IMG/VR virus record: IMGVR_UViG_3300032087_000806 | Span: 1 to 43,884 of that record | DNA length: 43,884 nucleotides | Origin: a virus | Reading direction: 5' to 3' (one strand) | Shown here: one piece after another, positions 16,870 through 43,884 of the stretch | Layout of the letters: every line of letters starts with the position of its first letter | Numbering within the stretch: the stretch's first letter is position 1 | Position numbers and translations under genes: made by a program | Notes under the pieces: model-generated | Seen by the model: only the letters and a program-made list of their open reading frames with translations | Databases searched by the model: none | Told to the model about the DNA's origin: nothing

Positions 16870-17284
16870 AAGAAGAACTAGAGATAGTAATCCTGTAGCA
16901 GGTGGTAGACCTTCATACGATACACAACCTGTACAAAATATTCCTAGAGCTGCAGGTGACCCTACAGGACAAAGTGCTGATTTTTTAGCACAACAGCAAG
17001 GAGCACCTTTAGCTAGAGAAGCAGAACAAGGTGTTGTGCCTTCAGGAGCACAAGAAAATGCAGCTGCACAAGTATTTAATTTACCTGATGCCTTTGGTCC
17101 CGGTGGTGGTAGCATTCCTATTAGCAGTAGCCAACCTGCTGTAGGTCCTGCATTATCTATGTCTAATGGATTATCTAGAGATGACGTAGATTTATTGTTG
17201 GAAGAAATAAATGCTATTGTGCCAAGTTACGAAACAGCAGCATTAACTAGACGAGGACAAGTATCTAGACAAGAGCCGAACTAA
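16862..17284 (+). CDS. Low-complexity Gly/Pro/Gln-rich small structural protein
   Basis: This is a 140-residue product, basic at the start (MAKRRTRDSNPVAGGRPSY), then long disordered stretches rich in Ala, Gln, Gly, Pro and Ser, and a short helix near the C-terminus (SRDDVDLLLEEINAIV). GGAGG precedes the ATG. The first 8 bases overlap the previous gene and the stop shares a base with the giant gene's start. It could be a minor virion or linker protein. Confidence 0.7.
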   Translation: MAKRRTRDSNPVAGGRPSYDTQPVQNIPRAAGDPTGQSADFLAQQQGAPLAREAEQGVVPSGAQENAAAQVFNLPDAFGPGGGSIPISSSQPAVGPALSMSNGLSRDDVDLLLEEINAIVPSYETAALTRRGQVSRQEPN

Positions 17285-20200
17285 TGGCGTTATTTTATCA
17301 TTTACCACATTGGATGGAAAATAAAGCTGCAAAACAAGCAGAAGCAAAAAACCAAAAGAGACAAGCATTTAGAAATTATGTTGCTCAAAATCCACAGTTT
17401 ACAAGAACATTACAAGAAAACTCTGTAGCTTTTGGTTTCTTGCCTACTGATACTATTGTAGGTGCATCATTATATGGACTAGACCCTAGTAAACCTGAAT
17501 GGGACGCAATAGTAGATAAATGGTTACAGAACGAAGCTGAAGAACAAAACAAATTTAAAGAAGCAGGAAAGTCTGCATTACGTATGGCTTTTACAGGTTT
17601 GCAATCTATGGCAGATTCTATAGATAAAACATATAAAGCTAATGCTATGGCATTAATGGATAGAGGTATGAAGCCATGGAATATATTAGCTTGGGGTGCA
17701 ATGTCTACATTAGACCCTACATATGCAGATGACGTAATGAATTATTACAGACAACAACCTGATACACCATTTGTACAAGCTATTAACAAAATGAAAAACG
17801 GAGAACGTGTTAATTTAGGTGACGGTATCTTAGGTGAAAGCACAAGAGCTGAAGATACAGAAATATATCAAGAAATGGTAGGTATGGGTGCTGACCCTGC
17901 AATAGTTAGTCAAAGATTACAAGAAGAACTAGGAGAACCTATTACACAAAACTATAGAGAAGAAGTTGCTAACTTTGGTAGTTATACAACTAACAATGGT
18001 ACAGTTCCTTTGTCAATAGGTAGAAATATAGCTGTAGAGTTATTTGAACCTGATGATTGGCAGTTTAATTTAATGTCTACCATATTTGATGGTGCATGGA
18101 GATTAGGTACTGACCCTGCATTATGGGCAGGTAGTGGTTACGCTAAGTTAGCAAAAGCAGTAAAAGCAGCACCTTCTGTATATACAAAGGGTGTAATAGA
18201 AAGTACTGAAGCATTAACAGCTGCACGTTCTGCAGGATTAGTAGATACTATGTATAGAAGATTAATAAATAAACCTGCATTAAATGATTATTTTAGAAAA
18301 TCAGAATCAGGTTATCGTATTGCAGAGTATTTAGCTAAAGCTCAAACACATGGAGAAATACAATCATTATTAAAATATCAGGGTACTGCTGCACTATATG
18401 GTGCTATTAAGAAAGCAGATACACCTGAAGCAGTTATTGATTTGTTAGTACCGCATATGGGTACAGCAATAAAACATAGATTAGATGCTACATCATTATT
18501 AACACGTGCAGTTCCTACTAGAGTTGCAGGTGGTTTGTATTCTGCAGCTAAAGGTAAGGGATTTCAATATGGATTTGATGTAGGTAGCTCAACTGCTGTT
18601 AAATCATTAGGTGCAGATGGTACAGGATTAGGACAAATGTTAGCTGCAGCATTTCCAATAGATAAATTAGAAGTACGTAATTTAGATAGAACTTACAAAC
18701 AAATGGCAGAATGGATGAAGTTTGCACAAGTTGGTGTAAAAAAACAAGACGAAGTACTTGATTTGTTATCTGAGATGGCATCAAGACAAGCTGTTACTGA
18801 TGATTTAAACTTTGTAGATAACTTTAACACTATTGTAGATTTGTGGAATAACCCTGCAGGTACAGGTGTTCTTAATGAAATAACAGATAGCTTAAAAGCA
18901 TCAGGTATACCTGACTCGGTTCTTAAAGGTGTAGAACAATGGTGGGCATCAGTAGATGAAACTAGGAAATACTTTGTGACATTAGGGCAAAGAGAAGGCG
19001 TTGGTATTAATACAGGTCAGATAATACCGGGTCAAAAGTTTAAATCATTAAAAGTTAATGGTGAAGAAGTATTTATATCACAACCTACTGCACAGTTAAT
19101 ATCTGAATATGTATCAGAAGGCTTTATACCTATGCCTGATATTAGAACATTTATTAAACTTGTTGGTCCTATGAGAACTTTTATAGGTAAAGTATTAACT
19201 TTAGGTATAGCAGATACAGCTAGTGTGCAAAAATTTATGACTAAACCATTAGCACGTGCTATAAACCTTGGAGTTAAAAGAGAATTAGATGACGTAGCAC
19301 ACGGTTCATTAACAGGATTAGAAGCTATAGAAGATTTATTTTATAGAGGTTTTGTTGCTAAAGCAACACGAGTATCAAAACGTGGTGAGTTTATAGACGA
19401 TGCTATTCAATTACAAGAAGCTGCGTTTACTAGATTTTCTAGTGGTGTTATGCAAAGATTATGGAAACCATTAGTGTTACTTCGTCCTGCATGGACAGCA
19501 CGTGTTGTAGGAGAAGAACAACTACGTATGGCATCTGCTAATTTAGATTCAGTATTTTATCATCCAATGTCATGGTTTGGTTGGGTATTAGGTAGAACAC
19601 CTGCAGAAAGAAGTAAACTTTTGAAAACTGTTACAAAAATCAAAGGAGATGAAGAAGAAGCAGTTGTAGCATTTGCTAAGTTTAAAGATAGATTTGGTAA
19701 AGGTATGTACGATATTACAGGTAATATTACTTCACACCACTATGACCACATAGCATCTATGTCTGTAGGTCACGGTGGTTGGTTAGGTGTAGACCCTGAA
19801 CGTTCTAGATATTGGAAATATTTAAATAGACCAACAGGACCTGACATAGAAGGATTTGATAAAGGTTGGGCTAGAGGTTTATTTATTTTAGAAAAAGACC
19901 CATTAGTAAAAGCATTAGCACAATTTCATAGACCCGGCATGACACAAGTTAGTTTAGATGAAATAGTAGAAAGTTTTGTTAATGGTGACCTTAGATACAT
20001 TAGAGAAGCGTTTGCAGGCAATGTAGATGATGCATTTGTAAATAGTAAAAAGATAATTTTAGAATCAGACCAAAAAGCTAGAGAGTATGTTGAGTCTGTG
20101 TATGCACGTATGCATTATGAAACAGGTGGTGCATATGAAGTAGTTAATAAAACTACAGGTCGTGTATATGGAATGGGTGATGAGATAAATCCACAAGAAT

Positions 20201-22449
20201 GGACTAATGATGCTTTTACTTACAGAATTACTAAACAAGGAGATACAGAACTAATACAAGATTTCCTAGGTGCTGTACCTAGAGAAGGTGGACAAATATC
20301 ACAATTTACATTAAGAGGTTTAGTTAATCCTGTAACAAAGAAAGATAGAATTATATATCTAGGTGAAGGTGAATCACAAGAAGCTTATAGATTATTTACA
20401 CAATGGCTAGGTACTAAGAAAATACCTAATAGACCACCTACTGTAAAGATACAAAGATTTGATGTATCACACGAATGGGGTCAATCATTAGATACTGCAA
20501 CTGAACGTTTGTTTGATATATTCATGTCAAGACCTACTAACCAACTATCACGTTCACCTGCTTTTAGACAATTTTATTGGGATGAAATAGCAGATATGCT
20601 ACCACACATGGACGCAGCATTGCGTGACCAAGTAGTGCGTACTGCATATAAATCTAATGTAATGAAAGGTAGCTTAGGAAGAAAGATTAAGAAAGCTGTA
20701 GAAGAACAAAAGACAGGTAATTATAAAGCTACATTACTAGATAAAGATATTGTAGATGTAGATAATATGGCTAAAGCACAAGCATTAACTAAAACACAAC
20801 ATCTTTTGTATGACTTAAACAGAAGGCACGTTACTTCTGAAATACTAAGAAACGTTATACCATTCGCAGAAGTATATATTGAAGTATTAGGAACATGGAA
20901 AAGATTATTAGCTGCTAATCCTGCAATACCACGATACGCACAAATGGGTATAGACGGTGCAAAGAAAAAAGGTTTTATTTATACAGACCCACAAACAGGT
21001 GAGGAGTTTTATAATTTCTCACAGTTTGGAGATAGATTACTTACTAAATGGTCATTAGGTACTGCAGATGAACAAGTAGGTGATGTACAAGCTAGAATAC
21101 AAACTCCTTCTAGATTAGAAGGATTGAATATGATTACAGGTGGTATTGGCTTAGGCTTAGGTCCATTAGCTACAGTACCTATTAATTATATGTTGCCACC
21201 CGGTGATTTAGAACCACAGATTGAAAGAGTAATATTTCCTTTTGGTAGACCTGATGAAATAACAGACCAATTCTTACCGGGTTGGGTTAGAAAGATACAA
21301 TCTATATTTAGTGATGACCCGCAGAAAAGAAAGCTATATGAAGACACAATGATAGATGTTATGAAAGTACATTTAGATACAGGATTGTATGATGATTCTA
21401 CACCTGAACTACAAGCTAAATCACTTGATAGAATAAAGAAAGGTGCTACTAATATTGTGCTTTATAGAGCTGTTACACAAGGTGTTTTGCCTACACAAGC
21501 TTTTGTTAAGTATGAATACAAAACTTCTGTACCGGGTGCTGCATTACATCTTACACCTGATGAGATAGAAGAAAATCCACAATGGTTTGAAACTGCATTA
21601 TTTAGTGATGCATACTATAGAGCTTTAGCTAGATTTGATGGAGATGAGCTTAGAGCTACTGATTGGTTTATTAAACAATTTGGATTTGACCCTGTAGCTT
21701 TAACTACTTCTAAATCTAGAGAACTAACACCTACATCTTACACAGAAGAAGGAACATACTTTGCTGCTGCTAATCCTGAGTTATTTGAACGTCACCCAAA
21801 CGTAGCGTATTGGTTATTTCCTGATGCACCTACAGACGAATTTTATTTAACAGCATACACAAATACTTTTATTACAGGTGCAAGAAAAGCTAGGAACTTA
21901 GATGAATGGTATGAAGATGGATACAAGACAGCACTATTTAATTTAGGAAAAGAAAATTTAAGACGTAATTTGTACGAAAATCCAAACATGGCACTAGATA
22001 GCCAAGCTAGAGATAACCTGTATAAAATGGGCATTATAGAGCTAGCAGACGTATATGACATCAAAGAGTATCCATCTATAAGTGCTGTGCCTGTTGATTC
22101 TCAAATGGACGAATTAAAGCGTATGTTAATAGATGAAGCAGATACTGTAGTTAAATTACCTGACGGACGTAGTATGAAAGTAAAAGATTTACCTGTTGTA
22201 AATGCTATTAATGCATACTTACAACAAAGAGAACTAATGTTAGGTGGATTACGTTATAGAACAGGTGATGTAACTGTTACACTAGGTAGAAGTGACGCAG
22301 AGTCTGAACGTGCTTTATTACAAGAAGTAGCTGATAATCTTATAAAGATTGCACCTGACTTTTACTTTTGGTTTTATAATGTTGGTGTGCGAGAATTTAG
22401 AGATGCTGATACAATGGACTTACCACTATTTGACGGATTTGAATTATGA
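17284..22449 (+). CDS. Giant structural protein, 1721 residues (likely internal/ejection protein)
   Basis: This long mostly helical protein lies directly after the portal cluster. It has no enzyme motif I recognise. Visible features are a Lys/Gln-rich start, a Trp-rich stretch (KPLVLLRPAWTARVVGEEQL and FYHPMSWFGWVLG, around 730-780) and a hydrophobic glycine-rich segment (GGIGLGLGPLATVPINYMLP, around 1285-1305) that could insert in a membrane. The C-terminal 350 residues are rich in aromatic and acidic residues. Large proteins next to a lysozyme-like gene suggest internal virion proteins delivered with the DNA, but their position between portal and capsid genes is unusual. A tape measure is less likely since no tube genes are seen. 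Confidence 0.72.
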   Translation: MALFYHLPHWMENKAAKQAEAKNQKRQAFRNYVAQNPQFTRTLQENSVAFGFLPTDTIVGASLYGLDPSKPEWDAIVDKWLQNEAEEQNKFKEAGKSALRMAFTGLQSMADSIDKTYKANAMALMDRGMKPWNILAWGAMSTLDPTYADDVMNYYRQQPDTPFVQAINKMKNGERVNLGDGILGESTRAEDTEIYQEMVGMGADPAIVSQRLQEELGEPITQNYREEVANFGSYTTNNGTVPLSIGRNIAVELFEPDDWQFNLMSTIFDGAWRLGTDPALWAGSGYAKLAKAVKAAPSVYTKGVIESTEALTAARSAGLVDTMYRRLINKPALNDYFRKSESGYRIAEYLAKAQTHGEIQSLLKYQGTAALYGAIKKADTPEAVIDLLVPHMGTAIKHRLDATSLLTRAVPTRVAGGLYSAAKGKGFQYGFDVGSSTAVKSLGADGTGLGQMLAAAFPIDKLEVRNLDRTYKQMAEWMKFAQVGVKKQDEVLDLLSEMASRQAVTDDLNFVDNFNTIVDLWNNPAGTGVLNEITDSLKASGIPDSVLKGVEQWWASVDETRKYFVTLGQREGVGINTGQIIPGQKFKSLKVNGEEVFISQPTAQLISEYVSEGFIPMPDIRTFIKLVGPMRTFIGKVLTLGIADTASVQKFMTKPLARAINLGVKRELDDVAHGSLTGLEAIEDLFYRGFVAKATRVSKRGEFIDDAIQLQEAAFTRFSSGVMQRLWKPLVLLRPAWTARVVGEEQLRMASANLDSVFYHPMSWFGWVLGRTPAERSKLLKTVTKIKGDEEEAVVAFAKFKDRFGKGMYDITGNITSHHYDHIASMSVGHGGWLGVDPERSRYWKYLNRPTGPDIEGFDKGWARGLFILEKDPLVKALAQFHRPGMTQVSLDEIVESFVNGDLRYIREAFAGNVDDAFVNSKKIILESDQKAREYVESVYARMHYETGGAYEVVNKTTGRVYGMGDEINPQEWTNDAFTYRITKQGDTELIQDFLGAVPREGGQISQFTLRGLVNPVTKKDRIIYLGEGESQEAYRLFTQWLGTKKIPNRPPTVKIQRFDVSHEWGQSLDTATERLFDIFMSRPTNQLSRSPAFRQFYWDEIADMLPHMDAALRDQVVRTAYKSNVMKGSLGRKIKKAVEEQKTGNYKATLLDKDIVDVDNMAKAQALTKTQHLLYDLNRRHVTSEILRNVIPFAEVYIEVLGTWKRLLAANPAIPRYAQMGIDGAKKKGFIYTDPQTGEEFYNFSQFGDRLLTKWSLGTADEQVGDVQARIQTPSRLEGLNMITGGIGLGLGPLATVPINYMLPPGDLEPQIERVIFPFGRPDEITDQFLPGWVRKIQSIFSDDPQKRKLYEDTMIDVMKVHLDTGLYDDSTPELQAKSLDRIKKGATNIVLYRAVTQGVLPTQAFVKYEYKTSVPGAALHLTPDEIEENPQWFETALFSDAYYRALARFDGDELRATDWFIKQFGFDPVALTTSKSRELTPTSYTEEGTYFAAANPELFERHPNVAYWLFPDAPTDEFYLTAYTNTFITGARKARNLDEWYEDGYKTALFNLGKENLRRNLYENPNMALDSQARDNLYKMGIIELADVYDIKEYPSISAVPVDSQMDELKRMLIDEADTVVKLPDGRSMKVKDLPVVNAINAYLQQRELMLGGLRYRTGDVTVTLGRSDAESERALLQEVADNLIKIAPDFYFWFYNVGVREFRDADTMDLPLFDGFEL

Positions 22450-23814: not shown

Positions 23815-24558
23815 ATGTCTTATAACTTCCATCACGATAACGTAATACCACATACAGAACCTGAAACAGTTTATGAAGCTATATTAGAAATTATTAAAGA
23901 CTCAGCTTATGGTGGTGCTACATACGAAGAAGCATGGAATATGTTTGGTGCTATGGCGTGGGAATCATTTGCTGACGCAGATGGAATAGGTAGTGAAGGT
24001 TGGAACAAAGCAGCGTTTAATCCTAAATCACATACATATGATGATGATGGTTTATTAGCTGTTGGTGTATTCCAAGTTAATGTAAATCATTTTCCTGACA
24101 TGATAATGCGTAGCATGATTGATACAGGATATACAGATGAATTTAGTTTTAGTCCTACAGTTTTTACTGTGAAAAAAAATAATTGGAAAGCAGATGACCC
24201 TGATTTAGAAAGAAAGAAACAATTATTTGAAGCTGCAAGATTATGGTTGAAAATGCCTGAAAATGAATATGCTATATTGCAATGGGCATCAGACCCAAAT
24301 ACATTTGACGCACAAGTTAATATTGCTAAAGAAGCATTTAATGATAGAGAAAAAGCAGGTGTATTTGGTGGTGAAGCTTGGGATAGTTACAAGTATGGTC
24401 AGATAGATAAAGGTCATAACATAATAGAAAAAGAATATGGCTTTACTAGATTAGACCAACCATGGCTACACGGTGTAGCGACAGACACATTTGATATAGA
24501 TAACACTACTGAAGTAAAAGAGAAATCAATACTAGATGGGATATACAATAAGTTCTAA
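23815..24558 (+). CDS. Lysozyme/transglycosylase-like virion protein
   Basis: The 247-residue product from the ATG at 23815 starts one base after the previous stop. Residues 44-52 (FGAMAWESF) and 80-92 (LLAVGVFQVNVNH) match the lysozyme-like fold of lytic transglycosylases: catalytic Glu50 after a hydrophobic helix, then the GxxQxN strand-turn. Such domains open peptidoglycan during DNA entry. A longer frame begins at 23737, but that part overlaps the upstream gene and lacks a ribosome site; it would add a hydrophobic stretch (MALIYGLCLVVWV), so a membrane-anchored form cannot be excluded. Confidence 0.68.
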   Translation: MSYNFHHDNVIPHTEPETVYEAILEIIKDSAYGGATYEEAWNMFGAMAWESFADADGIGSEGWNKAAFNPKSHTYDDDGLLAVGVFQVNVNHFPDMIMRSMIDTGYTDEFSFSPTVFTVKKNNWKADDPDLERKKQLFEAARLWLKMPENEYAILQWASDPNTFDAQVNIAKEAFNDREKAGVFGGEAWDSYKYGQIDKGHNIIEKEYGFTRLDQPWLHGVATDTFDIDNTTEVKEKSILDGIYNKF

Positions 24559-27500
24559 TGAATGAAAAAGAATTAAGAGATATATTAGAAAAGTTTTTTA
24601 ATCATACATTAGGTGTGTCATATAAAAATCCTATGATGGTTTACGATACTAATTCGTTGTTATCAGTTGTAGGTAAAACAGTAGGCATTCCTAATGCACA
24701 ACTTAAAACATTAAAGTTAATTATTGAGAAAGCACAAAAGACAGGCAGAATAAACGATAAACTTGTTAAAGGTTTATATAAATCAATAGTAGAAACAGGT
24801 GGAGATTTACAGTTATCTGCATTGATACTAGATAAATCTAAACCTACAGCAGAAAGACTATCTAAAATACTAGAACTTGTTTATGCACCTAGCTATAAAG
24901 GTTTACATAGAAACATGGTAACTAATGGTCCTGCTACTAATTATGATTTAAATCAAACACTACAAGACTTAGACGTAACAGGTAGAACAAGACGTATGCC
25001 TGATGGTCCTACAGGTTTTGTACCTGCTTATACAAACTTACTAGCAGCTATTGCAGCAATAGAAAAAGGGTTTATAGCTGCAGTACCATACCGTAAAGTT
25101 ACAAACAAAATAGGTGATAAAGTAATCCTAAACGAATCACAATCAGATTTATTTATTAAAAGTGCAGAAGCAGCAGCAGATTTTTACGATATTAAAAAAG
25201 TAAATCCTAAAGGTGAAGTAGATAAATTTGAAATGACATTAGATAGATACAATGATATTACAAGAATATTAGAGGTTGTACTAGCTGATGCAGAACTAAT
25301 AAAAAAATATGCATGGCAAGATTTATTAGACCCTGAAGTATTAGCAAAGCTTAATAATGAATTACAAGATGAAATAAATAAAAAGAAAGCTGAAGTAAAA
25401 AATAAACCTGTATTAGATGCTAAAGGTCAAGGAATGATTAATGCATTAAAAGAATGGAAAGCTACACAACCTGATTCATGGTTTGGAAATAATCCTATAA
25501 TAATAAATTCAGGTCAAATGGGTGTAGAAGAAGCAGCATTAGAAAGACACAACAGAAGTGGTTTAAATACAGGTGGTGCTGCACCTGCAGGATTTATTGC
25601 TAACCCTGTAAGTAATCCAAAAATCTTTCCACAAAAAGGAAAAGAATATAACTTAGAACCTTTGTATAACATTACAGATGAAACAGATGGTATAAAACCT
25701 TCTAAGGTAGATGACAATATTGATTCTGCAAAAGTGTATGAATATATAATGGCTAATGCTAGTGATGATTTTAAAAATCATATTAACAAATTAGCTGCTA
25801 TGGGATTTGATGATGTAGCTTTAAAACTTGCTGAGTCTTTTATATATGCAAAACCTAGATTTAAAGAAGAAGGATTTGACAGAGGTTGGTCTGTAAAGAA
25901 AGGTAAGCAAGCAGAGTTTGCTTTAGCAAAACAAATAAACGTAGACGCAGCAGATTTAAATGTAATTATTATTAATAGTAAAAACCCTGACGAAGTGTCA
26001 CTTAAAACTGCTATGTATTCTTTATATGGTGAATATAAATTACCTGCAAACTTGTTAGGTTTTTATGCAGGTAATCAAGATTATGTTATTAAAAGTTATG
26101 CACCTGCAAGTTTAGATTGGCGTGATGTTGCTGATGAGTTAAGAAGGAAATCTACTTTAAAAAGACCTGATACTTATTGGGAAGCAGCAGCAAAATCAAA
26201 GATAAAACAAATAGCAAGAACTGTTTCAGATAGAGATTTATTTGTAAACACTTATACATTAGAAGGTCAAGATGCAAAGAAAAATACTTATGTTATTGAT
26301 TTACAAAATTTTAAACACAATACATTAGCAGGAGCTTTAGAAGAATTTCAAGCAGAATTACTTGGAAAAGGTATGGTGTTGCAAAACATTAATGGTCAGC
26401 TTACTATTGTTGATAAAAACACAGGTGCATCTCAACTGTTTGATACAGATAAAAGTGGATATAAAATACACGTCACAGGTGATACAAGTGTTATTGGTGG
26501 ATACTACAAAGATTTAACAGACAGAATTGTACAAGCATTAGTAAGCCCTGAAGCTTATTATGAACAGTTAGCTAAACCACAGATAATGAAAGAAAATATG
26601 AAAGGCGGTTCTGTACAAGCTGATTATACCAAGTCTCCTGTTGCTTTAAATGAATACAGCGTTGTTAATAATGAACCTATGGAAAAGGTTATGACTAAAC
26701 AAGGAGCAGATGGAAATTTTGTTCCTGATTATAACAATCCAAACGTTGTGTCACAAGTAGATTTAATACGTGATGGCAAACAAAAAGGTTTCTTAATTAG
26801 AGAAGCTGACCTTCTTAAAAAATTAAATGTACCTACAATAAAAGAAGCTATTAAGGTATTAGAAACTAATCCTGAATTAAGACTTACAAATTTTGACCAA
26901 GGTCAAGAAACCAAAGTAAAAATATCTAATTGGGAAAAATTAGAAGCATATAAGTTTGGTAAGACAGAAAGAATGAAAGATGGTAATTATAAACTTGTTA
27001 CACCTAACCAAGATTTTATAGATAAATTTACTGACTTAGTTGGTAACCCAACTGCTACATTTAAAAAAAGTAAAAAACTAAATCCTGAAACAGGTTTGTG
27101 GGAAACAGGTAATGAAAAAATATATTTATCTGAAGGACAAATAGAATATCTTATTAACCAAAGTAAAACACGTTATGATAAATTTAAAAATAAAATAGAC
27201 CCAAAACCTTTTTGGTTGTTAGAAGTAGGAGAAACAGTTAGTCCTGCTGCTAAAAAAGCAGAAGCTATTAATGAAGCACTACGTGCAATTGAACAATCAC
27301 AATTACAATATGCTAGGTATTGGTCATATGGACAAGACCCTAAAGCTATAACACGTATAGGTAAAAATAATTATCCTGCAACAGTAGAAAATAACTTTTT
27401 AGTTAAAGGACCATTAGAACCTTTGTTTGTAGATTTATATCAATTCTTAACTTCATATGAATTTGGACCAAGAGATTTAAGTGTTGAAAGATTAATGGCT

Positions 27501-30500
27501 AACTTATCATCTGACGTATTTATGTCAGAATCTTTACAAGAAATAGTTAATGCTTTACTTGCAGATGAAGTTGGTTTAACTAATGCTGTAAAACCTATAG
27601 ACGCTAAGCAATTAGAAATAGCAAAGAAAAATAATTTCTTAGGTAAATTAACTATGTTTTATAAATTGTTAGGTCATCATAATGCTGTACTAAATGCTAT
27701 AACACTTAACATTGCACAAGAACTTGCAAGTAGAGGATACGACATGCAAGGAAGCATGGAACAGGTACAACAATTTATGGAAGAAATAACTAGCTTAGAT
27801 GATTTAAAAAATAATAAAAAGCTAGAACAAATAATGAATCAGACATTAGGACGTCATCAAGAAGTATTAGCAAACAAAATATATGAAACAATAAATTCTT
27901 TACACATGGCAGAAATAGAAATGCTTACTAAGTATCCCGATATAAAAAATGCGTACAATCAATTAAGAGCTATAGATAAAATAGAAGGTGAGTTTATGCC
28001 ACCTTTACCACCTGACGTAGACCCTGAAGTATTACAAGGTGCAATAATGGATAGAGATGGTGTAGACCCTAGGTTTCAAAATAAAAAACCAACTGACAAT
28101 ATGAATTTATTTAATGCAATGATGGATTCATTTCAAGGAATAACAGGTGCAGATGCCGCAGATTTATTAGAGTTTTATGAAGGATTGCAAGAATCTTTTG
28201 AACAATGGTCAGAAGAAGTTGTTAAATATGGAAGAAACAGAGATAAATATAAATGGATAAAAGACTTTTCCACAATTGTTAATCAGATAGAAGGTGCATT
28301 TACAGAAGCAGAATCACAAGGACGTAATCCTAGACAGTTACTAGCACAAGAAGAAGATTTTATTTTAGCTAAATTAACTGAGTTAGAAAAACACCTTGAT
28401 AAACCTGATGCAAAAGTATTTGAAAAAAGTGTTAGACCGGTATTAGAACAAGTAATGCCTGAAGACCGAGTTAAAAGTGTTAAAGCAATAACAGAATTTT
28501 ATCCTAATGTAATTAAAGAAGTACTTAAACAAAAGGAAATACATGAGAATCTAGGTATATTTACTGACAATGCAGTAGATGGATTTGCTGCTTTACAAAG
28601 AATAATTTATGATTGGTCAGGTTTTTATTTAGGTGAAAATTATTTACGAATAGATAATTTATTTGGTGCTGAAGATAGCGTAAATTACATGGGTAATGAA
28701 ATAGAAAACTATTCTGATGAATTATATAAATCAAGAATGATTACTGAAGAATTTGCATCATCATTACTACCACACATTTTTAAAGATGGATTAGAAAATT
28801 TCTTTGCTTCGTCACCTACAGCATTACAAGCGTTAATGATGAATGATACAAATGTTAATCCTGCTGTACAAGATAAATTTATTAAAGCATTTGTAGATGA
28901 GTATGGTGCAATTGTAATAAATAATGAAGCAATGATTAACAGTATGCAAACAGTTTTACCTTTATTAGCACAATCATCATTTGTAGATAACGGTTCATTA
29001 AAATTATTAATAGACGAAGTATACAAATTAACAGACAAAGGTAAACCACCAACAGTAGATTTTGATGATACTAAAAGTTTGAGAGAATATATAACAGAAG
29101 TGTCAGACCAATTGTTATCAGGTAGTCAAATTGAAGGTGTAGAAGCAATGGATATTGTTAAGACTTTAGAAAAAGTATTTCCACCTAATGACTTTCCTGA
29201 ACTATATAGAGTTATGACAGATGACCCTTTTGCTTTAAATTACATGATGTTTGTACTTGAAACAAATCTTAAAAGATTAGCTGTACGTCCTGAAAATATA
29301 GAAAAAGTATTTAATGTAGAAGTTTCTAAATTAGGAATAGATGAAGAATTTAATTGGCAAGAGTTTAAAAACAAGATAGCTAAAGGTAATGTTTTTAAAT
29401 TATTGACAGGCACAGGAGAAACATTTGATATACAACCTGAACGAGTAAACGAAATTAAAAACGTATCTAAGAAAAGATTATCAGATATGGTTTTTGAATA
29501 TAACAAACTTATGTCAGGCACAGGTGTTCAATTTAAATTAGTGTCTAATATTCCTGATAAGTGGGATATGAAAGCACAACAAGGTAAAAACTTTAATCCA
29601 TTTGTTGTTGCACCTTCAAAAGGAGCAGATGCTTTTTATCATATACAGTTAGTATTACAAGACCCAACCAAATCGTTTGCTGATGTTATGAGTAAAGAAG
29701 TAGCTATGGCTATAACTCATTTACTACAAGTAGAACAACCTACTAACTTTGTAAACAATACAGGATTAGGTGGTAACTATAGCAATAGTCTTTTACGTAA
29801 CGGGTTTTTAAATTCGTATTTATATGCAGATACTTTGGGTGAAGAAATAGGTATGGAAGCTCTTATGAAAGAATTAGAGCTTGAAATAGAATCTACTAAA
29901 GTTTTATTTGAAAAGATTAAAAAAGACACATTAAAGAATGCAGCTCCTGAAGATGTTAAGAAATTAGAAATTACATTTGACTATCTAGAAAGTGGTTTAG
30001 ATGAAGCATACAAGTTAGCTAATGCTAGGGCAATAACCTACGGTAGGCAATTCGTTGCAGAAAAAGGAACTAAGACTTTTTATGGATTAGATGATGCAGG
30101 TGCTTTTCCATTAGCTAAATTAAAAATACCTAAAGAATTTATCTTAGGTGGTGCAACAAATGTAACTAACTCTACATTGTTTACTACCTTTATTGCACCT
30201 ATTCTTCTTAGAAATAAATCACTAGACATAGAAGATATGAAACAAATACAAGATGTATTAAGTAAGAAAGGTGTCAATTTTGAAATAGCACAATATGTTG
30301 ATGTGTTGCTAGATTTAACAGAACCAAAGCTTGGTAGAAAAACATTAGACAATGGATTGCAATTAGCTGATGAGTTATACAATACAATATTTTTTGACAA
30401 AGAAAATGGGTTTATGAAACCTGCAGAAGTTACAAGCAAAGAGTTTAAAATATTACAAAATATAGATAAAGAATATTTTCTCTATCTGAAGCATAAGTTT

Positions 30501-32309
30501 GACCAAGGTATTGAGTTAAAAGATATTCCTACTAAACAGGGTGTGCCTGCAGATTATCATCAAAGAGTTCAAGAATTATTATCAGGAACTTACAACATAT
30601 ATGAAGGTACATTTGATGAGTTTAGAAGTAATGAGTTTACTAAAGATAAAAAAACTATAGGAAAATGGTGGGATGATACATTAGAGAAATACAAGATTAT
30701 GCAAGATAGATTTGTAACACCTGAACTAGGACCTGCAAACCCAACTAACTTTAAAGATTTAAGTGCAATGTATTTAATGCAGTTTAGTAAAGATTTAGGT
30801 GATGGATTTATACAAGACTTATACAATCAAACAAATATAGATAGAACATATGCATTAGAAATGGAAGAAATAACTTCTCATTTAAGAAAAGGAAGTGGAC
30901 TAGCAGATGTTGCACACATGTTTAACATACCATTAACACCACAATTAGGTTCAGGTATTGGTAAAGACTTAACAATACGTGGTCCTGTAGGTTGGCAAAT
31001 AGTACAACCTAGAGGTGAAGCAATACCAATGGGTCCACCTAAAGGTCCAAGTGACTTAGTGTTACGTGGTAAATTCTCTATGCTATATGATGATAGTAAA
31101 CCTGCATTAGTTAAAGGTGCTAACTTTGGTGAAGGTGACCCATTTAGAAATGCATTTAAAGCACCACCATTTAAAAGAGTTAAACAACCAAGAGACTTTA
31201 CTGTGTTAAAAAATATAGTAGATGCATCTAAAAATGTTAGATACAGTAAAGCTAAGTATCAATATAATTTTGGTAGAGGTAAAGAACTTACGTTTTATAC
31301 AGGTGCGGGACCGCAATCATCTATAGTTCCTTATGAAAAAGTAAGTCCATTTAAAAGATATTTTAGAAATTTAAGAACACTTACAGAGTTACCATACTTC
31401 TATAACAAGCATGCAGGTAAAGGTGGTCCGAGAGTATATGTTGGTTATTACCAAAGCCAACCTGTATATGCATCAGATACAGACCCTAGAGTTATTAAGC
31501 AACCAAAGATGAAAGCAGGATTTATTCCTACAAAGCCGGGAGTTACATTGAACGCAGCAGAGTTTGAAGATTGGTATAGAACTACTAAATCAGAATACTT
31601 GAAACAAAACCTAGTGTATAAACCTGTACGTGCTTATGGCAAACTTAACGCAGCAGCTTTTGGTGCTGATATGCTATATGCAGTAAATGCTTATAATAAA
31701 GATACTGCAGGTATGACTTATGATGAATTTATAGAACATGCATATACACAACCCGGACAAGAAATGATACACAAGATTTTTTATCCTATACAAAAAATTA
31801 TGGAAGCACCATTTAAAGCACGTGAAGATATACAGAATAAAAGATTAAAACTAGAACAAGATTTAAAAAATGGCGTTATAAATCAAGCTACATACAATAC
31901 TAAAAGTGCTGCATACAATACATTAGAGGAACAATACACAAGTGGTGTAAATATAGTTACAACTGTTGGTAGATTGTTTGAAGGTTTTATGGAAGGTGGT
32001 CCTCGTAATATAGGTAGACAAGCAGAAGAAGCTAGACAGCAATCAGAACTTATAGCAAAAAATTATAAAGCAGGTTCAGAAGAAGAATGGTTAGCAAATA
32101 TACAAAATAGATACACAGACCTAGCAAAGACTAAACATTTAACTTATAATTATGGAGACGATTATTATAGTCGTGGTAGAAGATTTATTAATAAACAAAT
32201 GAGAAAAATGAAAATGTTTAATGTAGATAAGAATGATAGATTTAATGACCCTGAATATATATTAGAAAAACCACAAGACATATACGAAATACCGGGAGGT
32301 CTTAAATGA
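24558..32309 (+). CDS. Giant protein, 2583 residues, unknown function
   Basis: At 7.75 kb this one gene takes 18 percent of the genome. It starts in a TAATG overlap with the lysozyme-like gene and ends in an ATGA overlap with the next gene. Most of the protein is Lys/Glu-rich alternating helices without clear repeats. The C-terminal 500 residues change character to Pro/Gly- and Arg/Lys-rich (RGPVGWQIVQPRGEAIPMGP, basic PPFKRVKQPRD) and end in helices. I looked for single-subunit RNA polymerase motifs: a lone DVTGR near residue 138 and DRDGVD near 1160 do not form the required series. Ejected internal protein is my best guess. Confidence 0.7.
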   Translation: MNEKELRDILEKFFNHTLGVSYKNPMMVYDTNSLLSVVGKTVGIPNAQLKTLKLIIEKAQKTGRINDKLVKGLYKSIVETGGDLQLSALILDKSKPTAERLSKILELVYAPSYKGLHRNMVTNGPATNYDLNQTLQDLDVTGRTRRMPDGPTGFVPAYTNLLAAIAAIEKGFIAAVPYRKVTNKIGDKVILNESQSDLFIKSAEAAADFYDIKKVNPKGEVDKFEMTLDRYNDITRILEVVLADAELIKKYAWQDLLDPEVLAKLNNELQDEINKKKAEVKNKPVLDAKGQGMINALKEWKATQPDSWFGNNPIIINSGQMGVEEAALERHNRSGLNTGGAAPAGFIANPVSNPKIFPQKGKEYNLEPLYNITDETDGIKPSKVDDNIDSAKVYEYIMANASDDFKNHINKLAAMGFDDVALKLAESFIYAKPRFKEEGFDRGWSVKKGKQAEFALAKQINVDAADLNVIIINSKNPDEVSLKTAMYSLYGEYKLPANLLGFYAGNQDYVIKSYAPASLDWRDVADELRRKSTLKRPDTYWEAAAKSKIKQIARTVSDRDLFVNTYTLEGQDAKKNTYVIDLQNFKHNTLAGALEEFQAELLGKGMVLQNINGQLTIVDKNTGASQLFDTDKSGYKIHVTGDTSVIGGYYKDLTDRIVQALVSPEAYYEQLAKPQIMKENMKGGSVQADYTKSPVALNEYSVVNNEPMEKVMTKQGADGNFVPDYNNPNVVSQVDLIRDGKQKGFLIREADLLKKLNVPTIKEAIKVLETNPELRLTNFDQGQETKVKISNWEKLEAYKFGKTERMKDGNYKLVTPNQDFIDKFTDLVGNPTATFKKSKKLNPETGLWETGNEKIYLSEGQIEYLINQSKTRYDKFKNKIDPKPFWLLEVGETVSPAAKKAEAINEALRAIEQSQLQYARYWSYGQDPKAITRIGKNNYPATVENNFLVKGPLEPLFVDLYQFLTSYEFGPRDLSVERLMANLSSDVFMSESLQEIVNALLADEVGLTNAVKPIDAKQLEIAKKNNFLGKLTMFYKLLGHHNAVLNAITLNIAQELASRGYDMQGSMEQVQQFMEEITSLDDLKNNKKLEQIMNQTLGRHQEVLANKIYETINSLHMAEIEMLTKYPDIKNAYNQLRAIDKIEGEFMPPLPPDVDPEVLQGAIMDRDGVDPRFQNKKPTDNMNLFNAMMDSFQGITGADAADLLEFYEGLQESFEQWSEEVVKYGRNRDKYKWIKDFSTIVNQIEGAFTEAESQGRNPRQLLAQEEDFILAKLTELEKHLDKPDAKVFEKSVRPVLEQVMPEDRVKSVKAITEFYPNVIKEVLKQKEIHENLGIFTDNAVDGFAALQRIIYDWSGFYLGENYLRIDNLFGAEDSVNYMGNEIENYSDELYKSRMITEEFASSLLPHIFKDGLENFFASSPTALQALMMNDTNVNPAVQDKFIKAFVDEYGAIVINNEAMINSMQTVLPLLAQSSFVDNGSLKLLIDEVYKLTDKGKPPTVDFDDTKSLREYITEVSDQLLSGSQIEGVEAMDIVKTLEKVFPPNDFPELYRVMTDDPFALNYMMFVLETNLKRLAVRPENIEKVFNVEVSKLGIDEEFNWQEFKNKIAKGNVFKLLTGTGETFDIQPERVNEIKNVSKKRLSDMVFEYNKLMSGTGVQFKLVSNIPDKWDMKAQQGKNFNPFVVAPSKGADAFYHIQLVLQDPTKSFADVMSKEVAMAITHLLQVEQPTNFVNNTGLGGNYSNSLLRNGFLNSYLYADTLGEEIGMEALMKELELEIESTKVLFEKIKKDTLKNAAPEDVKKLEITFDYLESGLDEAYKLANARAITYGRQFVAEKGTKTFYGLDDAGAFPLAKLKIPKEFILGGATNVTNSTLFTTFIAPILLRNKSLDIEDMKQIQDVLSKKGVNFEIAQYVDVLLDLTEPKLGRKTLDNGLQLADELYNTIFFDKENGFMKPAEVTSKEFKILQNIDKEYFLYLKHKFDQGIELKDIPTKQGVPADYHQRVQELLSGTYNIYEGTFDEFRSNEFTKDKKTIGKWWDDTLEKYKIMQDRFVTPELGPANPTNFKDLSAMYLMQFSKDLGDGFIQDLYNQTNIDRTYALEMEEITSHLRKGSGLADVAHMFNIPLTPQLGSGIGKDLTIRGPVGWQIVQPRGEAIPMGPPKGPSDLVLRGKFSMLYDDSKPALVKGANFGEGDPFRNAFKAPPFKRVKQPRDFTVLKNIVDASKNVRYSKAKYQYNFGRGKELTFYTGAGPQSSIVPYEKVSPFKRYFRNLRTLTELPYFYNKHAGKGGPRVYVGYYQSQPVYASDTDPRVIKQPKMKAGFIPTKPGVTLNAAEFEDWYRTTKSEYLKQNLVYKPVRAYGKLNAAAFGADMLYAVNAYNKDTAGMTYDEFIEHAYTQPGQEMIHKIFYPIQKIMEAPFKAREDIQNKRLKLEQDLKNGVINQATYNTKSAAYNTLEEQYTSGVNIVTTVGRLFEGFMEGGPRNIGRQAEEARQQSELIAKNYKAGSEEEWLANIQNRYTDLAKTKHLTYNYGDDYYSRGRRFINKQMRKMKMFNVDKNDRFNDPEYILEKPQDIYEIPGGLK

Positions 32310-39902: not shown

Positions 39903-40082
39903 ATGTCAATGTTAATGTTACTTAAAGAAGGTGGAGGATTAAACATAGATACTATAGGTAATTTACCTATAGATGAAGATATAGATTTAACAGACGACAT
40001 TAATTATTCTGCTATAATAGGTCTAGCAAGTTTTGGATTATCACGTTTTGGTGATACAGTAGTAACGGAGAAGAAAGCTTAA
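39903..40082 (+). CDS. 59-residue small protein in the tail module
   Basis: ATG at 39903 with AGGAT about 8 bases upstream; TAA at 40080-40082 overlaps the next ATG. The product starts MSMLMLLKEGGGLNIDTIGN, has an acidic middle and a short hydrophobic segment (SAIIGLASFGLSRFG). Tight coupling to the tail-fibre gene supports it. Function unknown. Confidence 0.65.
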   Translation: MSMLMLLKEGGGLNIDTIGNLPIDEDIDLTDDINYSAIIGLASFGLSRFGDTVVTEKKA

Positions 40083-41026
40083 TGACATTACAAACAGCTG
40101 AATACAGTAACTTTTTTGAAACAACATTAGACGGCAATGTAGCCGGTGGTGACACTACAATAACTCTTAGTGCATTACCTACATCAGATGGTACAACTTT
40201 CATAGATGCACCATATTATTTAGTCATAAACCCTGATAGCACAACTAACAGAGAAGTAATAAATGTAACTTCACACAACACAGGTACATTACAAATAACA
40301 TGCACTAGAGATGTTGAAGGTAGGCACTCTCCTGACATTCCTCACGACACAGGTACAACTGTCCGTATGTCAGTAGTAGGTGAAATGTTTGAAGATTTAC
40401 ATGATAGATTAAATGACGTTGCATTAACAGGTGATGTTACAGGTACAATAAATTCAGCTACACAAGATATAGCTACAACATTAGCTAGTGGTATAGATGC
40501 TACTAAGATTGCAGATGGTTCTGTTACAAGTGCAGAGTTCCAATATATTGGTGGACTTACATCTGATGCACAAACACAATTAGATGCTAAAGCAACTACA
40601 GCAGACACATTAGATGAGTTTGGTAATCCTGTTGCAGCACTAGATATTAACGACCAAGAACTTACAAAGTTTGTAGCTAAAGATTACAAAGAAGATGTTG
40701 CTACTACTTCTGATAGTGGAACAAGTTTTGCTGCAAACGTACTTACACTAGATGTGCAAGATGGAAATATATTTGATATAACACTTGATGGTAATATAAC
40801 AACTTGGACTATAAACAATATGGATTCGGGTACAACTATCAGCGTAATTTTAAGACAAGATGCAACAGGTAGTAGAACTGCACCTACACAAATAAACTCT
40901 ACAACCATTAAGACAGTAGATGGTGGTGGATTAGAATTATCAACTGCTGCTTCAGCTATAGATGTAGTTACAGTATTTTATGATGGCACAGACTACTTAG
41001 TCTTTAGTCAAGTGAATATGAGTTAA
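40082..41026 (+). CDS. Tail fibre protein
   Basis: This is a 314-residue protein. The N-terminal 110 residues are beta-rich (GGDTTITLSALPTSDGTTFI, GTLQITCTRDVEGR), a likely virion-attachment domain. The middle holds trimeric-fibre sequence typical of phage fibres (ALTGDVTGTINSATQDIATT, SVTSAEFQYIGGLTSDAQTQ, then LDAKA). The C-terminal part is beta-structured. It precedes the glycine-rich adhesin gene by one base, so the two likely form one fibre. Confidence 0.83.
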   Translation: MTLQTAEYSNFFETTLDGNVAGGDTTITLSALPTSDGTTFIDAPYYLVINPDSTTNREVINVTSHNTGTLQITCTRDVEGRHSPDIPHDTGTTVRMSVVGEMFEDLHDRLNDVALTGDVTGTINSATQDIATTLASGIDATKIADGSVTSAEFQYIGGLTSDAQTQLDAKATTADTLDEFGNPVAALDINDQELTKFVAKDYKEDVATTSDSGTSFAANVLTLDVQDGNIFDITLDGNITTWTINNMDSGTTISVILRQDATGSRTAPTQINSTTIKTVDGGGLELSTAASAIDVVTVFYDGTDYLVFSQVNMS

Positions 41027-41027
41027 T

Positions 41028-41921
41028 ATGGCTCCTTTAGGGTTTGCTAAAGTAGGATGGCAAGGTGGAGCAGGATTTTCACCGGTAGTTGCAACAGGTG
41101 GAACAATTAACACATACACAGAAGGTGGCGTAGAATACAAATCACACACATTTACAGGAGACGGTTCGTGGTCAGTATCTGATTCCGGTTCTGAAGGCAC
41201 TATACAAATAATGGTTCTTGCAGGTGGAGGTTCAGGTGGTGGCGGTGGTGTAGATGATAGAGGTGGTGGCGGTGGTGCAGGCGGTATGCTTGTAGAAACT
41301 GCTACTATATCTGCTACAGGAAGTTACGCTATTGATGTTGGTGGCGGTGGTGCAGGCACTAGGTGGCGTTCAGACCAAGGTAATCCGGGAGCTGATAGTA
41401 CTATAGCTAATCCTTCAGCTACAATAATTGCTAGAGGTCAAAATGGTGGTAGAGGCGGTGGCTATGCAGGTTCCGGTGGAGCAGGTGGTTCCGGTGGTGG
41501 CGGTGGAGGTAGTTCAAGTAACGGTGGTGGAAGACAATTTGACACAGTTAATTATCCTTCTACTGCACAAGGTAATGCAGGTTATAAAGGTAAAGGTGGC
41601 GGTGGAGGTGGAGCAGGTGGTTCTACAGGAGACACTACAACAACAGCAAGTGGTGGTGGTCAAACAGGTTTAACTAATACTTATAAAGACGGTACATCTG
41701 ATAAATATGCAGGTGGCGGTGGTGGCGGTGGTAGTAGTGCAGTTTCAGGTTTTGGAGGTACAAGTAGTCCGGGAGGAGCAGGAAATGGTAATCCTGCACC
41801 TGCTAATCAAGGCGGAGGTAGCGGAGGTAATATGGGTTCTAACGCAGGTGGAAGTGATAATTGGGCAACTTCTAATGGAGGTTCCGGTATAGTTATAATA
41901 AGGTATCTTACAGGTAACTAA
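41028..41921 (+). CDS. Glycine-rich tail adhesin
   Basis: This is a 297-residue protein. It has a beta-strand start (GVEYKSHTFTGDGSWSVSDS, then IQIMVLAGGG), then long GGGG-rich stretches interrupted by variable residues (about residues 65-280), ending SGIVIIRYLTGN. The framework matches glycine-rich polyglycine-II-like adhesins at phage fibre tips, where variable loops between the glycine layers set receptor specificity. The repeated GGT/GGC codons create other open frames in the same stretch; these are artefacts. It should decide host range. Confidence 0.83.
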   Translation: MAPLGFAKVGWQGGAGFSPVVATGGTINTYTEGGVEYKSHTFTGDGSWSVSDSGSEGTIQIMVLAGGGSGGGGGVDDRGGGGGAGGMLVETATISATGSYAIDVGGGGAGTRWRSDQGNPGADSTIANPSATIIARGQNGGRGGGYAGSGGAGGSGGGGGGSSSNGGGRQFDTVNYPSTAQGNAGYKGKGGGGGGAGGSTGDTTTTASGGGQTGLTNTYKDGTSDKYAGGGGGGGSSAVSGFGGTSSPGGAGNGNPAPANQGGGSGGNMGSNAGGSDNWATSNGGSGIVIIRYLTGN

Positions 41922-42205
41922 TGGCACACTTTGCAAAACTAGATGAAAATAATAATGTATTAAGAGTATCAGTAGTTAATAATGATGATATTCAAGATGA
42001 AAATGGTAATGAACAAGAATCTATAGGTATATCTTTATTACAAAATTTACACGGTGCAGATACTATATGGAAACAAACATCTTATAACAATAATTTTAGA
42101 GGAATGTATGCAGCAATAGGTGGAGTTTATGACCCTACACACGATAAATTTGTACCACCGGGTGCTAGACTTACTGCTGAAGGAGAATACGAACAAGCAG
42201 TATAA
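41921..42205 (+). CDS. Small tail-fibre-associated protein of marine phages
   Basis: This is a 94-residue product with MAHFAKLDENNNVLRVSVVN, GISLLQNLHGADTIWKQTSY and NNNFRGMYAAIGGVYDPTHD. This set of phrases is a widespread short protein in marine cyanophages and pelagiphages, next to tail-fibre genes; its exact role is not known to me. It overlaps the adhesin stop (TAATG). Confidence 0.83.
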   Translation: MAHFAKLDENNNVLRVSVVNNDDIQDENGNEQESIGISLLQNLHGADTIWKQTSYNNNFRGMYAAIGGVYDPTHDKFVPPGARLTAEGEYEQAV

Positions 42206-42214
42206 AGGTGGATA

Positions 42215-43327
42215 ATGAAAAAAATATCTATTATAGGTAAAGGTACAGCAGGTATTTTATCTGCAAATCATTTTGCTTATTACACAGACCCTAATGAAGT
42301 AGAAATAGAATGTTACTTTGATAGCAATATTAAAGAACAAACTGTAGGTGAAGGTACTACTGTTGATATACCTAAAATGCTTAGTACTACACAAGGGTTA
42401 GAATTTAACGATATATTCAAACTTGTTAATGGCAATTTTAAAACAGGAATACATTACATAGGTTGGGGTAAACAAGATTTTATGCACACATTTCCTATGC
42501 CTAATGTATCAATACATTTCAATGCAGTTATGTTACAAGATTTATTAAAAGAAAGATTAAGTGACAGAGTTAAATTTATAGATGAAAATGTAAACCCACT
42601 TAAATTAAACACAGACCACGTCATAGATTGTACAGGTAAACCAAAAGATATGAGTGATATGAAAGTTGCAGAATATATACCTGTAAACTCTGCACTTGTA
42701 TTTCAATGTAGTTGGGATGTGCCACGATACACTCACACGATATGTATAGCACACAAGTATGGTTGGATATTTGGCATACCTTTACAAGATAGAATGAGTT
42801 TTGGATATTTATATAACAATAAAATAAACAATATAAACGAAATTAAAAATGAATTATATTCAGTTATAGATGAATATGGATTTTCAGGTATAGATAAAGA
42901 ATCACATTTTGAATTTAATAACTATTATAGAAAACAAAATTACTTTAAAAATTATACATACAATGGTAACGCTAGTTTTTTTCTTGAACCTATGGAAGCT
43001 ACAAGTATTGCAACAGTTGATGAAATAAATAGATTTTTATACGACACAATATTTAATGATTTAAATTACAACATAGCTAATTCTATATATGATGAGTGGT
43101 TTGCTAAAGTACAAGATGTTATAACTATACATTACTTAGCAGGGTCAAGTTATGATACAGAATTTTGGAAACACGCTGTTAAACTTGCAAAACTTAATTG
43201 GGAAAAAAGGTCTATTAATTTTAATATCTTAATAGATAGTGTTAAGAACAACAAAGTTATTGGTAATTATGGTACTTGGACAACAAAATCTTGGGAGCAA
43301 AACCTTACTTCATTAGGTTTTTTATAA
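42215..43327 (+). CDS. Tryptophan-halogenase-like flavoprotein
   Basis: This is a 370-residue protein with the FAD-binding start ISIIGKGTAG (GxGxxG type, residues 8-13), a Lys in FKTGIHYIGWG (Lys76) where halogenases keep the catalytic lysine, GWIFGIP (183-189) in place of the WxWxIP motif that blocks mono-oxygenase activity, and FFLEPMEATS (256-264) corresponding to the conserved FLEP-E-S region. A related cyanophage enzyme (VirX1 of phage Syn10) was shown to halogenate substrates. Here one tryptophan of the motif is Phe and the protein is shorter than the usual 500 residues. AAGGTGG lies 4 bases before the ATG. The substrate is unknown; modifying a fibre, surface molecule or small metabolite are all possible. 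Confidence 0.82.
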   Translation: MKKISIIGKGTAGILSANHFAYYTDPNEVEIECYFDSNIKEQTVGEGTTVDIPKMLSTTQGLEFNDIFKLVNGNFKTGIHYIGWGKQDFMHTFPMPNVSIHFNAVMLQDLLKERLSDRVKFIDENVNPLKLNTDHVIDCTGKPKDMSDMKVAEYIPVNSALVFQCSWDVPRYTHTICIAHKYGWIFGIPLQDRMSFGYLYNNKINNINEIKNELYSVIDEYGFSGIDKESHFEFNNYYRKQNYFKNYTYNGNASFFLEPMEATSIATVDEINRFLYDTIFNDLNYNIANSIYDEWFAKVQDVITIHYLAGSSYDTEFWKHAVKLAKLNWEKRSINFNILIDSVKNNKVIGNYGTWTTKSWEQNLTSLGFL

Positions 43328-43350
43328 TTTAATATGATACAATCAAAAGC

Positions 43351-43500
43351 ATGGATTTTATTATTGTTTTTGCTTTAGGTTATTGTTTTAAAGATTTTAC
43401 ATCTTATCTTAAACAATTAGTAAATAACATTAATTACAATAAAGAGTTTGAGACTATTATTGATTTAGATAATGAGTGGAGTAAGGACGACCTACCATAA
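43351..43500 (+). CDS. 49-residue protein with an N-terminal membrane segment
   Basis: ATG at 43351 to TAA at 43498-43500, which overlaps the next ATG. The product begins MDFIIVFALGYCFKDFTSYL, a short hydrophobic segment, then a charged tail (IIDLDNEWSKDDLP). No ribosome site is clear; TATGAT at 43333-43338 could be a -10. It may be a small membrane protein of the lysis module, such as an accessory holin or spanin part. Confidence 0.55.
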   Translation: MDFIIVFALGYCFKDFTSYLKQLVNNINYNKEFETIIDLDNEWSKDDLP

Positions 43501-43676
43501 TGTCTAGCGAAAAATATCAAAACGGATTTACACAGAAGGAGTTGAATATAATGATATTAGAAAAACTAGATAAAATAGAAGAACAGCTTGATACTAAATT
43601 AGACAAATCAGAGTTTCACAAAATATTAGGATTAGTAGGCACAGTAGCAATAGTTATTAGTGCTTACTTAATGTAA
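43500..43676 (+). CDS. XhlA-like coiled-coil plus membrane-anchor protein
   Basis: The frame from ATG 43500 gives 58 residues; an internal ATG at 43551 with AAGGAG upstream gives 41 and may be the main start. The product has a coiled coil (MILEKLDKIEEQLDTKLDKS) followed by one C-terminal membrane helix (ILGLVGTVAIVISAYLM). This is the layout of XhlA-type proteins, which assist holins and endolysins. It lies upstream of amidase and holin if the genome is circular. Confidence 0.6.
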   Translation: MSSEKYQNGFTQKELNIMILEKLDKIEEQLDTKLDKSEFHKILGLVGTVAIVISAYLM

Positions 43677-43679
43677 ACA

Positions 43680-43847
43680 ATGGGAAAGATGAGTGAGTTA
43701 CATATAGAAATGAATAAATTTAAAATTACATATAAAGATAAAACAGAAACATTTCAGTTACCTGAAGATATGTTTACAGATAATCCTGTATTTGTAGATA
43801 CATCACAAGAGTTTGATGATGATTGTGGAGATGCTTGTAAGATATGA
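43680..43847 (+). CDS. 55-residue acidic small protein
   Basis: ATG at 43680 (or 43689) to TGA at 43845-43847. The product has a beta hairpin-like core (KFKITYKDKTETFQLPEDMF) and an Asp-rich tail with two cysteines (DDDCGDACKI). The stop overlaps the next start. Function unknown. Confidence 0.58.
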   Translation: MGKMSELHIEMNKFKITYKDKTETFQLPEDMFTDNPVFVDTSQEFDDDCGDACKI

Positions 43848-43884
43848 TGAAAAAAATAAAAGATAACATAGGTTTAGTTGCAAC
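43844..43884 (+). CDS. N-terminal start of the gene that continues at base 1
   Basis: ATG at 43844 or 43847 begins MMKKIKDNIGLVA and runs off the end with two bases (AC) of the next codon. Joining to base 1 (T) makes ACT and continues in frame into the 65 residues ending at 199. The start overlaps the previous stop (ATGATG). It is the other half of the feature at 1-199. Confidence 0.7.
   Translation, partial: MMKKIKDNIGLVA

Follow-up and report, generated by a model that had tools for sequence, protein, structure and literature searches.

Short viral homologues of flavin-dependent halogenases, a probable sister clade of peptidyl brominases, recur near phage tail fibre genes

Results

A halogenase-like gene at the end of a tail gene block

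The window analysed here, all 43,884 bases of an IMG/VR virus record, comes from a virus whose terminase and capsid proteins have only distant relatives among isolates. Close to one end is a block of tail genes on the + strand, comprising a 314 aa tail-fibre-like protein (40082..41026), which has a weak match to phrog_9017 (0.03) and belongs to a neighbour cluster found in 16 records; a 297 aa glycine-rich protein resembling a fibre tip or adhesin (41028..41921), which matches PF21722 (Gly_rich_2; 5e-13) and phrog_2295 and is a candidate substrate of the enzyme described below; and a 94 aa small protein of the tail-fibre module (phrog_7759; 41921..42205). These are followed by an ATG-initiated gene of 370 aa (42215..43327, +), free of internal stops, predicted to encode a short flavin-dependent halogenase of a viral clade that is sister to SrpI. 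A Shine-Dalgarno-like AAGGTGG (42205..42211, +) overlaps the stop of the upstream gene, suggesting that the halogenase is co-translated with the tail genes. An earlier note on this DNA placed the gene next to the tail adhesin: the two do share a tail block, although the phrog_7759 gene lies between them. Many relatives of this phrog_7759 protein end in a Trp-rich C-terminal tail, which it lacks; in its closest neighbours, from L013 and L014, the tail is likewise reduced.

The halogenase is followed by small ORFs of 58 and 55 aa (43328-43884), and the opposite end of the contig encodes an amidase-type endolysin (226-891); the genome may be circularly permuted, with the halogenase between its fibre module and its lysis module. 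Two giant ORFs between the packaging and capsid genes, at 17284-22449 (1721 aa) and 24558-32309 (2583 aa), have no Pfam match.

The 370 aa protein is a true homologue of flavin-dependent halogenases and not a chance resemblance, matching the Pfam Trp_halogenase profile (PF04820) at 7.4e-39 (134.3 bits; cut-off 21), the 'tryptophan halogenase' family phrog_2928 at 1.8e-67, and halogenases in the PDB from 4e-17, with VirX1 at 3e-12. The characteristic motifs recorded in the earlier note are all retained, and most are nearly invariant in an alignment of 71 short viral homologues. The GxGxxG FAD motif (GKGTAG, residues 8-13; 42236..42253, +) has each of G8, G10 and G13 in 70 of the 71, and Lys76 (42440..42442, +), which aligns with the lysine of VirX1 and Lys84 of SrpI-like proteins, is likewise a lysine in 70. 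The FLEPMEATS stretch (residues 256-264; 42980..43006, +) includes Glu258 (71/71) and Glu261 (70/71), the latter completing with Lys76 a lysine/glutamate pair that aligns with those of VirX1 and the SrpI-like proteins. In GWIFGIP (residues 183-189; 42761..42781, +), a WxF variant of WxWxIP, the second Trp is replaced by Phe, as noted earlier, and this too is the case in 70 of the 71. Residues 94-99 (42494..42511, +) mark the site of a substrate-side insert that the alignments show in classical halogenases and VirX1 and that the window protein lacks.

A conserved family of short viral enzymes

A profile scan of IMG/VR recovered at least 586 relatives among at least 599 matched stretches, from which the best 80, confirmed against the window protein itself, were kept as a non-random sample of viral loci. 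Relatives also occur in 68 of 50,697 phage records, mostly T4-like cyanophages, none at more than 60% identity. Short length is typical of the family: 97 of the 103 halogenase ORFs at 92 loci are 334-418 aa long, the other six being 467-499 aa, and at least one of the 103, that of L013, is clipped by the end of its locus. The alignment comprised 71 of 75 non-redundant proteins, four long forms having been left out. Both the shortness and the Phe are thus the normal state of the family rather than signs of decay in the window copy. The dN/dS ratios were 0.06-0.20 in all 36 pairs listed (80-98.5% identity), from which the short viral family is judged to be under purifying selection. A decayed or truncated enzyme is ruled out by the family lengths, the complete structural model described below, the conserved catalytic residues and the dN/dS values, and, with the exception of the family lengths, the same evidence supports the proposal in the earlier note of a working enzyme, in the sense of predicted activity.

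A smaller alignment of 12 proteins revealed Gln in place of the catalytic Glu in two of them, from phages S-SSM7 (L007:5998-7101) and CP21 (L011:5998-7197). The Campylobacter phage CP21 enzyme, 399 aa in length and on a long branch, groups with classical halogenases in an unrooted tree, such that length alone does not define the short clade. Two halogenase genes are found in 11 viral loci, four of which pair a short form with a long form of around 490 aa; the two genes are adjacent in L025, L039, L064, L067, L069 and L070, and apart in L046, L050, L066, L089 and L090. Such arrangements suggest that enzymes for two substrates might be kept together.

Predicted fold

An AlphaFold2 model of the enzyme, built with the 71 alignment rows, is complete and has a pLDDT of 95.8 and a pTM of 0.92. 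Flavin halogenases rank first in a Foldseek search with the model and fill all 50 of the VIA-align matches listed. The alignment with AbeH covers 360 of the 370 residues (Z 40.9, rmsd 2.9), and the comparisons with VirX1 and PrnA that the earlier note had called for returned the halogenase fold, with Z scores of 31.3 and 36.5 (2ard) respectively; the lanthipeptide halogenase MibH scored 34.9. Most solved halogenases are approximately 497-554 aa long, making the window enzyme around 130-160 residues shorter, in line with the earlier estimate of about 130. The missing residues fall at two places, the C-terminal part and the substrate-side insert, which in classical enzymes and VirX1 amounts very roughly to 50-70 residues between the positions of F93 and H101.

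Relationship to SrpI-type brominases

An unrooted tree left the order of three clades unsettled, and these were ordered by a tree of 48 hand-picked rows rooted with eight more distant flavoproteins. In the rooted tree the short viral enzymes and SrpI-like proteins form one clade (support 99/96), with classical halogenases, VirX1 and the long phage forms in a separate one (93/94); the viral group is sister to the SrpI-like branch (100/100) rather than nested inside it. The earlier note had likened the enzyme to VirX1, identified here as L302:3980-5572 by a match to 6qgm over 530 of 530 residues. This affinity is not upheld, and VirX1 is rejected as the closest analogue, as it falls with the classical halogenases whereas the window protein falls with the SrpI-type peptidyl brominases. 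Shared motifs agree with the tree: GW-x-F is common to 70 of 71 viral and all 79 cellular proteins, W occupying the position in nine of 12 classical or outgroup proteins scanned, and the viral and SrpI-like proteins also have in common GN...EP-x-EA and HY..GS-x-YD/T-x-x-FW-type stretches, as well as the lack of the substrate-side insert in the alignments. These comparisons of sequence support the view that the halogenase represents a short viral clade of the flavin halogenase superfamily, sister to peptidyl brominases.

The profile used on IMG/VR, run against genomes, gave the cellular relatives: 150 among 204 matched stretches, of which 80 were kept; most are 421-450 aa long and many derive from sponge-associated bacteria. 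Near 34 of the 80 genes is a small ORF of one family, ending in GLCCCW in 33 cases, and all five of the small ORFs tested matched the NHLP leader family TIGR03793. In the available part of PMC10286304, SrpI is described as the sponge-microbiome brominase of the Trp in the -LCCCW core of SrpE, and the available part of PMC10858898 describes Lys84 and a leader-contacting loop at residues 104-110 of SrpI, in which PQQVS residues were mutated. Correspondingly, the 424 aa proteins of L122 and L172 have a lysine at position 84, and that of L122 reads PQQVS at 105-109. The cellular set was taken as putative SrpI orthologues on the strength of three published features, the core, Lys84 and the residues of the loop. 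The viral group also takes in two short halogenases, L094 and L097, from MAG contigs binned as Poribacteria and Chloroflexi; these genes may belong to a prophage or a wrongly binned phage, or may be genuinely cellular.

Linkage to fibre genes

Among window-like contigs there is a recurrent order of tail protein, glycine-rich fibre, phrog_7759, sometimes cluster c12 or c2, and halogenase. In a second lineage the halogenase is preceded by a fibre, collagen-like in the tested member, and a gene of a Phage_tail_APC-like cluster, so labelled from its one tested member, which lies directly upstream of the halogenase in all 18 records having that cluster. A fibre-class gene was found within three genes of 33 of 66 distinct halogenase loci, against two of 71 PhoH control loci from an equivalent sample (Fisher p 6e-11, taking no account of relatedness). 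Because genes neighbouring halogenases served to build most of the fibre profiles, the fairer figure is that given by the glycine-rich rule alone, 18 of 66 against two of 71. One contig represented twice (L044, identical to L001) was dropped before these counts. Genes were called by a greedy longest-ORF procedure here, as well as for the ORF lengths at the 92 loci and for the phrog_7759 loci considered below.

The association is far from universal. About one in two short halogenases has no fibre gene beside it, and several from isolate cyanophages are among these. In S-ShM2 and S-RIM4 the short form precedes a structural protein and fibre by a few genes, but in S-SSM7, Sf-CH8 and S-MS29 it is elsewhere, away from fibre genes, and the T4-like isolates carry the halogenase in replication, head or other blocks. 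When the fibre label was mapped onto the tree, covering 60 of 71 rows since 11 near contig ends with no fibre gene were left unlabelled, six changes were needed, at least three of them forced by starred branches, so there was more than one gain or loss of fibre linkage. Conversely, only one of 79 phrog_7759 loci has a halogenase nearby, and these fibre modules thus usually do without one. The phrog_7759 protein was rejected as an obligate partner or Trp-tail substrate on this count and because the window copy has no Trp-rich tail.

Other neighbouring genes were also considered. A fibre module surrounding the halogenase in L002 (254-7842) includes glycine-rich, phrog_7759-like, carbamoyltransferase-like and several 2OG-Fe(II) oxygenase-like genes, and looks like a dense modification cassette. 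Such an association is striking in L001, L002, L045 and HTVC008M, yet it was discarded as a general feature, not being backed by the control counts: 2OG-Fe(II) oxygenases were near 14 of 66 halogenase loci and six of 71 controls (p 0.05), and carbamoyltransferases near five of 66 and five of 71, neither of which is a clear enrichment. The c2 family (phrog_7084; around 238 aa, for instance L017:8136-8846) occurs near short halogenases in 17 records, usually as the gene at +1 or -1 and in some cases flanking the halogenase on either side, and was not seen beside the window halogenase. Its identification as a 2OG oxygenase was rejected; its model (pLDDT 86) matches dUTPase folds, and those only weakly (best E 5e-4, TMq 0.36).

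Discussion

Substrate and proposed mechanism

It is very probable, judging from the retained residues and the homology, that the window enzyme has halogenase chemistry. The substrate is a separate matter. According to the available part of PMC10286304, SrpI brominates Trp at the C-terminus of peptides and of a maltose-binding-protein fusion, and free indole too, but not free Trp; the available part of PMC10858898 describes the SrpI loop equivalent to the insert site as modelled in contact with the substrate leader. Because the viral enzymes lack the same insert as SrpI, at the loop where the substrate is met, a residue borne by a protein becomes more likely, and by analogy with SrpI such a substrate seems slightly favoured overall. 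Matches to an NHLP or SrpE-like leader precursor were found in none of the 37 viral records searched out of 82 loci, the window included, with two of two control MAGs positive, and C-terminal Trp is not enriched near the halogenase (71 of 526 against 70 of 486); a SrpE-like precursor with a C-terminal Trp was consequently discarded for the phages.

In the mechanism proposed, a host reductase would supply FADH2 to what would be a two-component enzyme; a flavin reductase (PF01613), present in 13 of 14 control genomes, was not found in the window, so the host could be the source. Reduced flavin, O2 and halide would yield HOX, which would pass to Lys76, and Lys76 and Glu261 would direct electrophilic halogenation of an aromatic ring. 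Lacking the substrate-side insert and C-terminal part, the enzyme might have an open face able to accommodate a residue within a protein. Of the possible substrates, an aromatic side chain in one of the phage proteins encoded by the block in which the halogenase lies would be the likeliest; the glycine-rich fibre tip or its companion would be the first to consider, and halogenation of a tail protein might tune adsorption or virion stability. By kinship with SrpI, the halide is presumed to be bromide.

The preferred account, which we hold tentatively, is accordingly that of a working short halogenase acting on an aromatic residue borne by a protein, most likely one of the same-block phage proteins. 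The narrower proposition that a tail-module protein is the substrate is possible but, on balance, doubtful, and slightly more doubtful still is its extension to a large, hitherto undistinguished viral clade halogenating aromatic residues of its own tail fibres or adhesins, probably by bromination given seawater and the kinship with SrpI. The suggestion in the earlier note that a fibre or cell-surface residue may be modified instead of free tryptophan thus finds partial support in the SrpI relationship and the recurrent fibre linkage.

The fibre end of a tail block is a site of accessory genes. It is therefore conceivable, at somewhat long odds, that the halogenase is a mobile accessory gene at an insertion hotspot, its place after the fibre genes being compatible with any substrate and saying nothing about it. 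The scarcity of halogenases at phrog_7759 loci, the repeated changes of fibre label on the tree and the varied positions in T4-like isolates fit this account; against it, PhoH, itself an accessory gene, shows next to no fibre linkage by the same count, and the Phage_tail_APC-like cluster is invariably adjacent in one lineage. The varied positions, with around half of the relatives away from fibres, would also suit halogenation of a host protein, whether a surface receptor or a defence protein, for example blocking superinfection or inactivating the target, in which case the fibre neighbourhood would mark only the time of expression. Kinship with SrpI allows any protein-borne Trp as substrate, so a host target is permitted by it; nevertheless, the tail-block position and strong fibre enrichment are a better fit to a virion target, nothing was found that names a host one, and we consider this reading quite unlikely. 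Least probable of all is that the enzyme is no halogenase and instead hydroxylates a peptidyl aromatic residue, as does the flavin monooxygenase QhpG. WxF replaces WxWxIP, a motif suggested in the available part of PMC8407142 to suppress monooxygenation, and L097, a short relative from the cellular set, weakly matches QhpG (20.1 bits; cut-off 240). Against this, the Lys/Glu pair is kept almost throughout the viral family, the WxF variant is universal among the 79 SrpI-like proteins, SrpI being a proven brominase, and the window protein has no NCBIfam match.

Phage 'tryptophan halogenases' have been discussed as metabolic genes, whether in connection with antibiotics, including pyrrolnitrin (PMC8940887) and, as speculation, antibiotic protection of the host (PMC2984593), or with metabolite stability (PMC10452541). 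On such a reading the window gene would be an auxiliary metabolic enzyme halogenating free tryptophan or an indole or phenol, and providing a halogenated metabolite to the cell or phage. VirX1, in the available part of PMC8407142, halogenates many small aromatics, and the reported activity of SrpI on free indole points the same way. This explanation is nonetheless unlikely, given that the enzyme belongs to a different clade from the free-Trp halogenases and VirX1, is missing their substrate-side insert and C-terminus, and is recurrently placed near fibres, and that no biosynthetic gene was recognised among the 25 window ORFs scanned. Were the short clade to act on protein-borne residues, as in the account preferred here, the metabolic annotation would be wrong for many marine phages, virion proteins would gain an unsuspected covalent modification, perhaps affecting adsorption, and nature would offer chemists a large number of compact halogenases acting on peptides. 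A search of the full-text literature found no report of halogenation of virion tail proteins.

Comparison with known systems

Membership of the PF04820 superfamily is indicated by the profile match, the fold, GxGxxG and the catalytic Lys and Glu. PrnA, RebH, PyrH and Thal share the fold (Z around 31-38), the FAD motif and the Lys/Glu pair with the window enzyme; they differ in carrying the insert and C-terminal substrate region, both absent from the window enzyme, which for its part has the W-x-F motif. VirX1, from cyanophage Syn10 (6qgm; in the available part of PMC8407142), is similarly virus-borne, with the same fold and aligned Lys and Glu, and differs in its 530 aa length, long insert and C-terminus, W-x-W motif and classical grouping. 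The window enzyme consequently does not belong with the free-Trp halogenases and VirX1: WxWxIP is not intact, the insert and C-terminal region are absent, and the 99/96 branch excludes it.

SrpI is closer, the two falling in sister clades (99/96) and sharing the lack of the classical insert, GW-x-F-x-IP, EP-x-EA and an aligned catalytic Lys. The window enzyme differs from it in being viral, in being around 50 aa shorter and in having no NHLP precursor with a C-terminal Trp of the SrpE type. Among phages, short members of the same clade are already contained in phrog_2928 and in the T4-GC 212 'PrnA' cluster, such as those of S-ShM2 (359 aa) and S-SSM7 (367 aa). According to the available part of PMC3037559, T4-GC 212 includes both short genes (1104-1167 nt) and long ones (1437-1593 nt), and these two forms represent different clades in the present tree.
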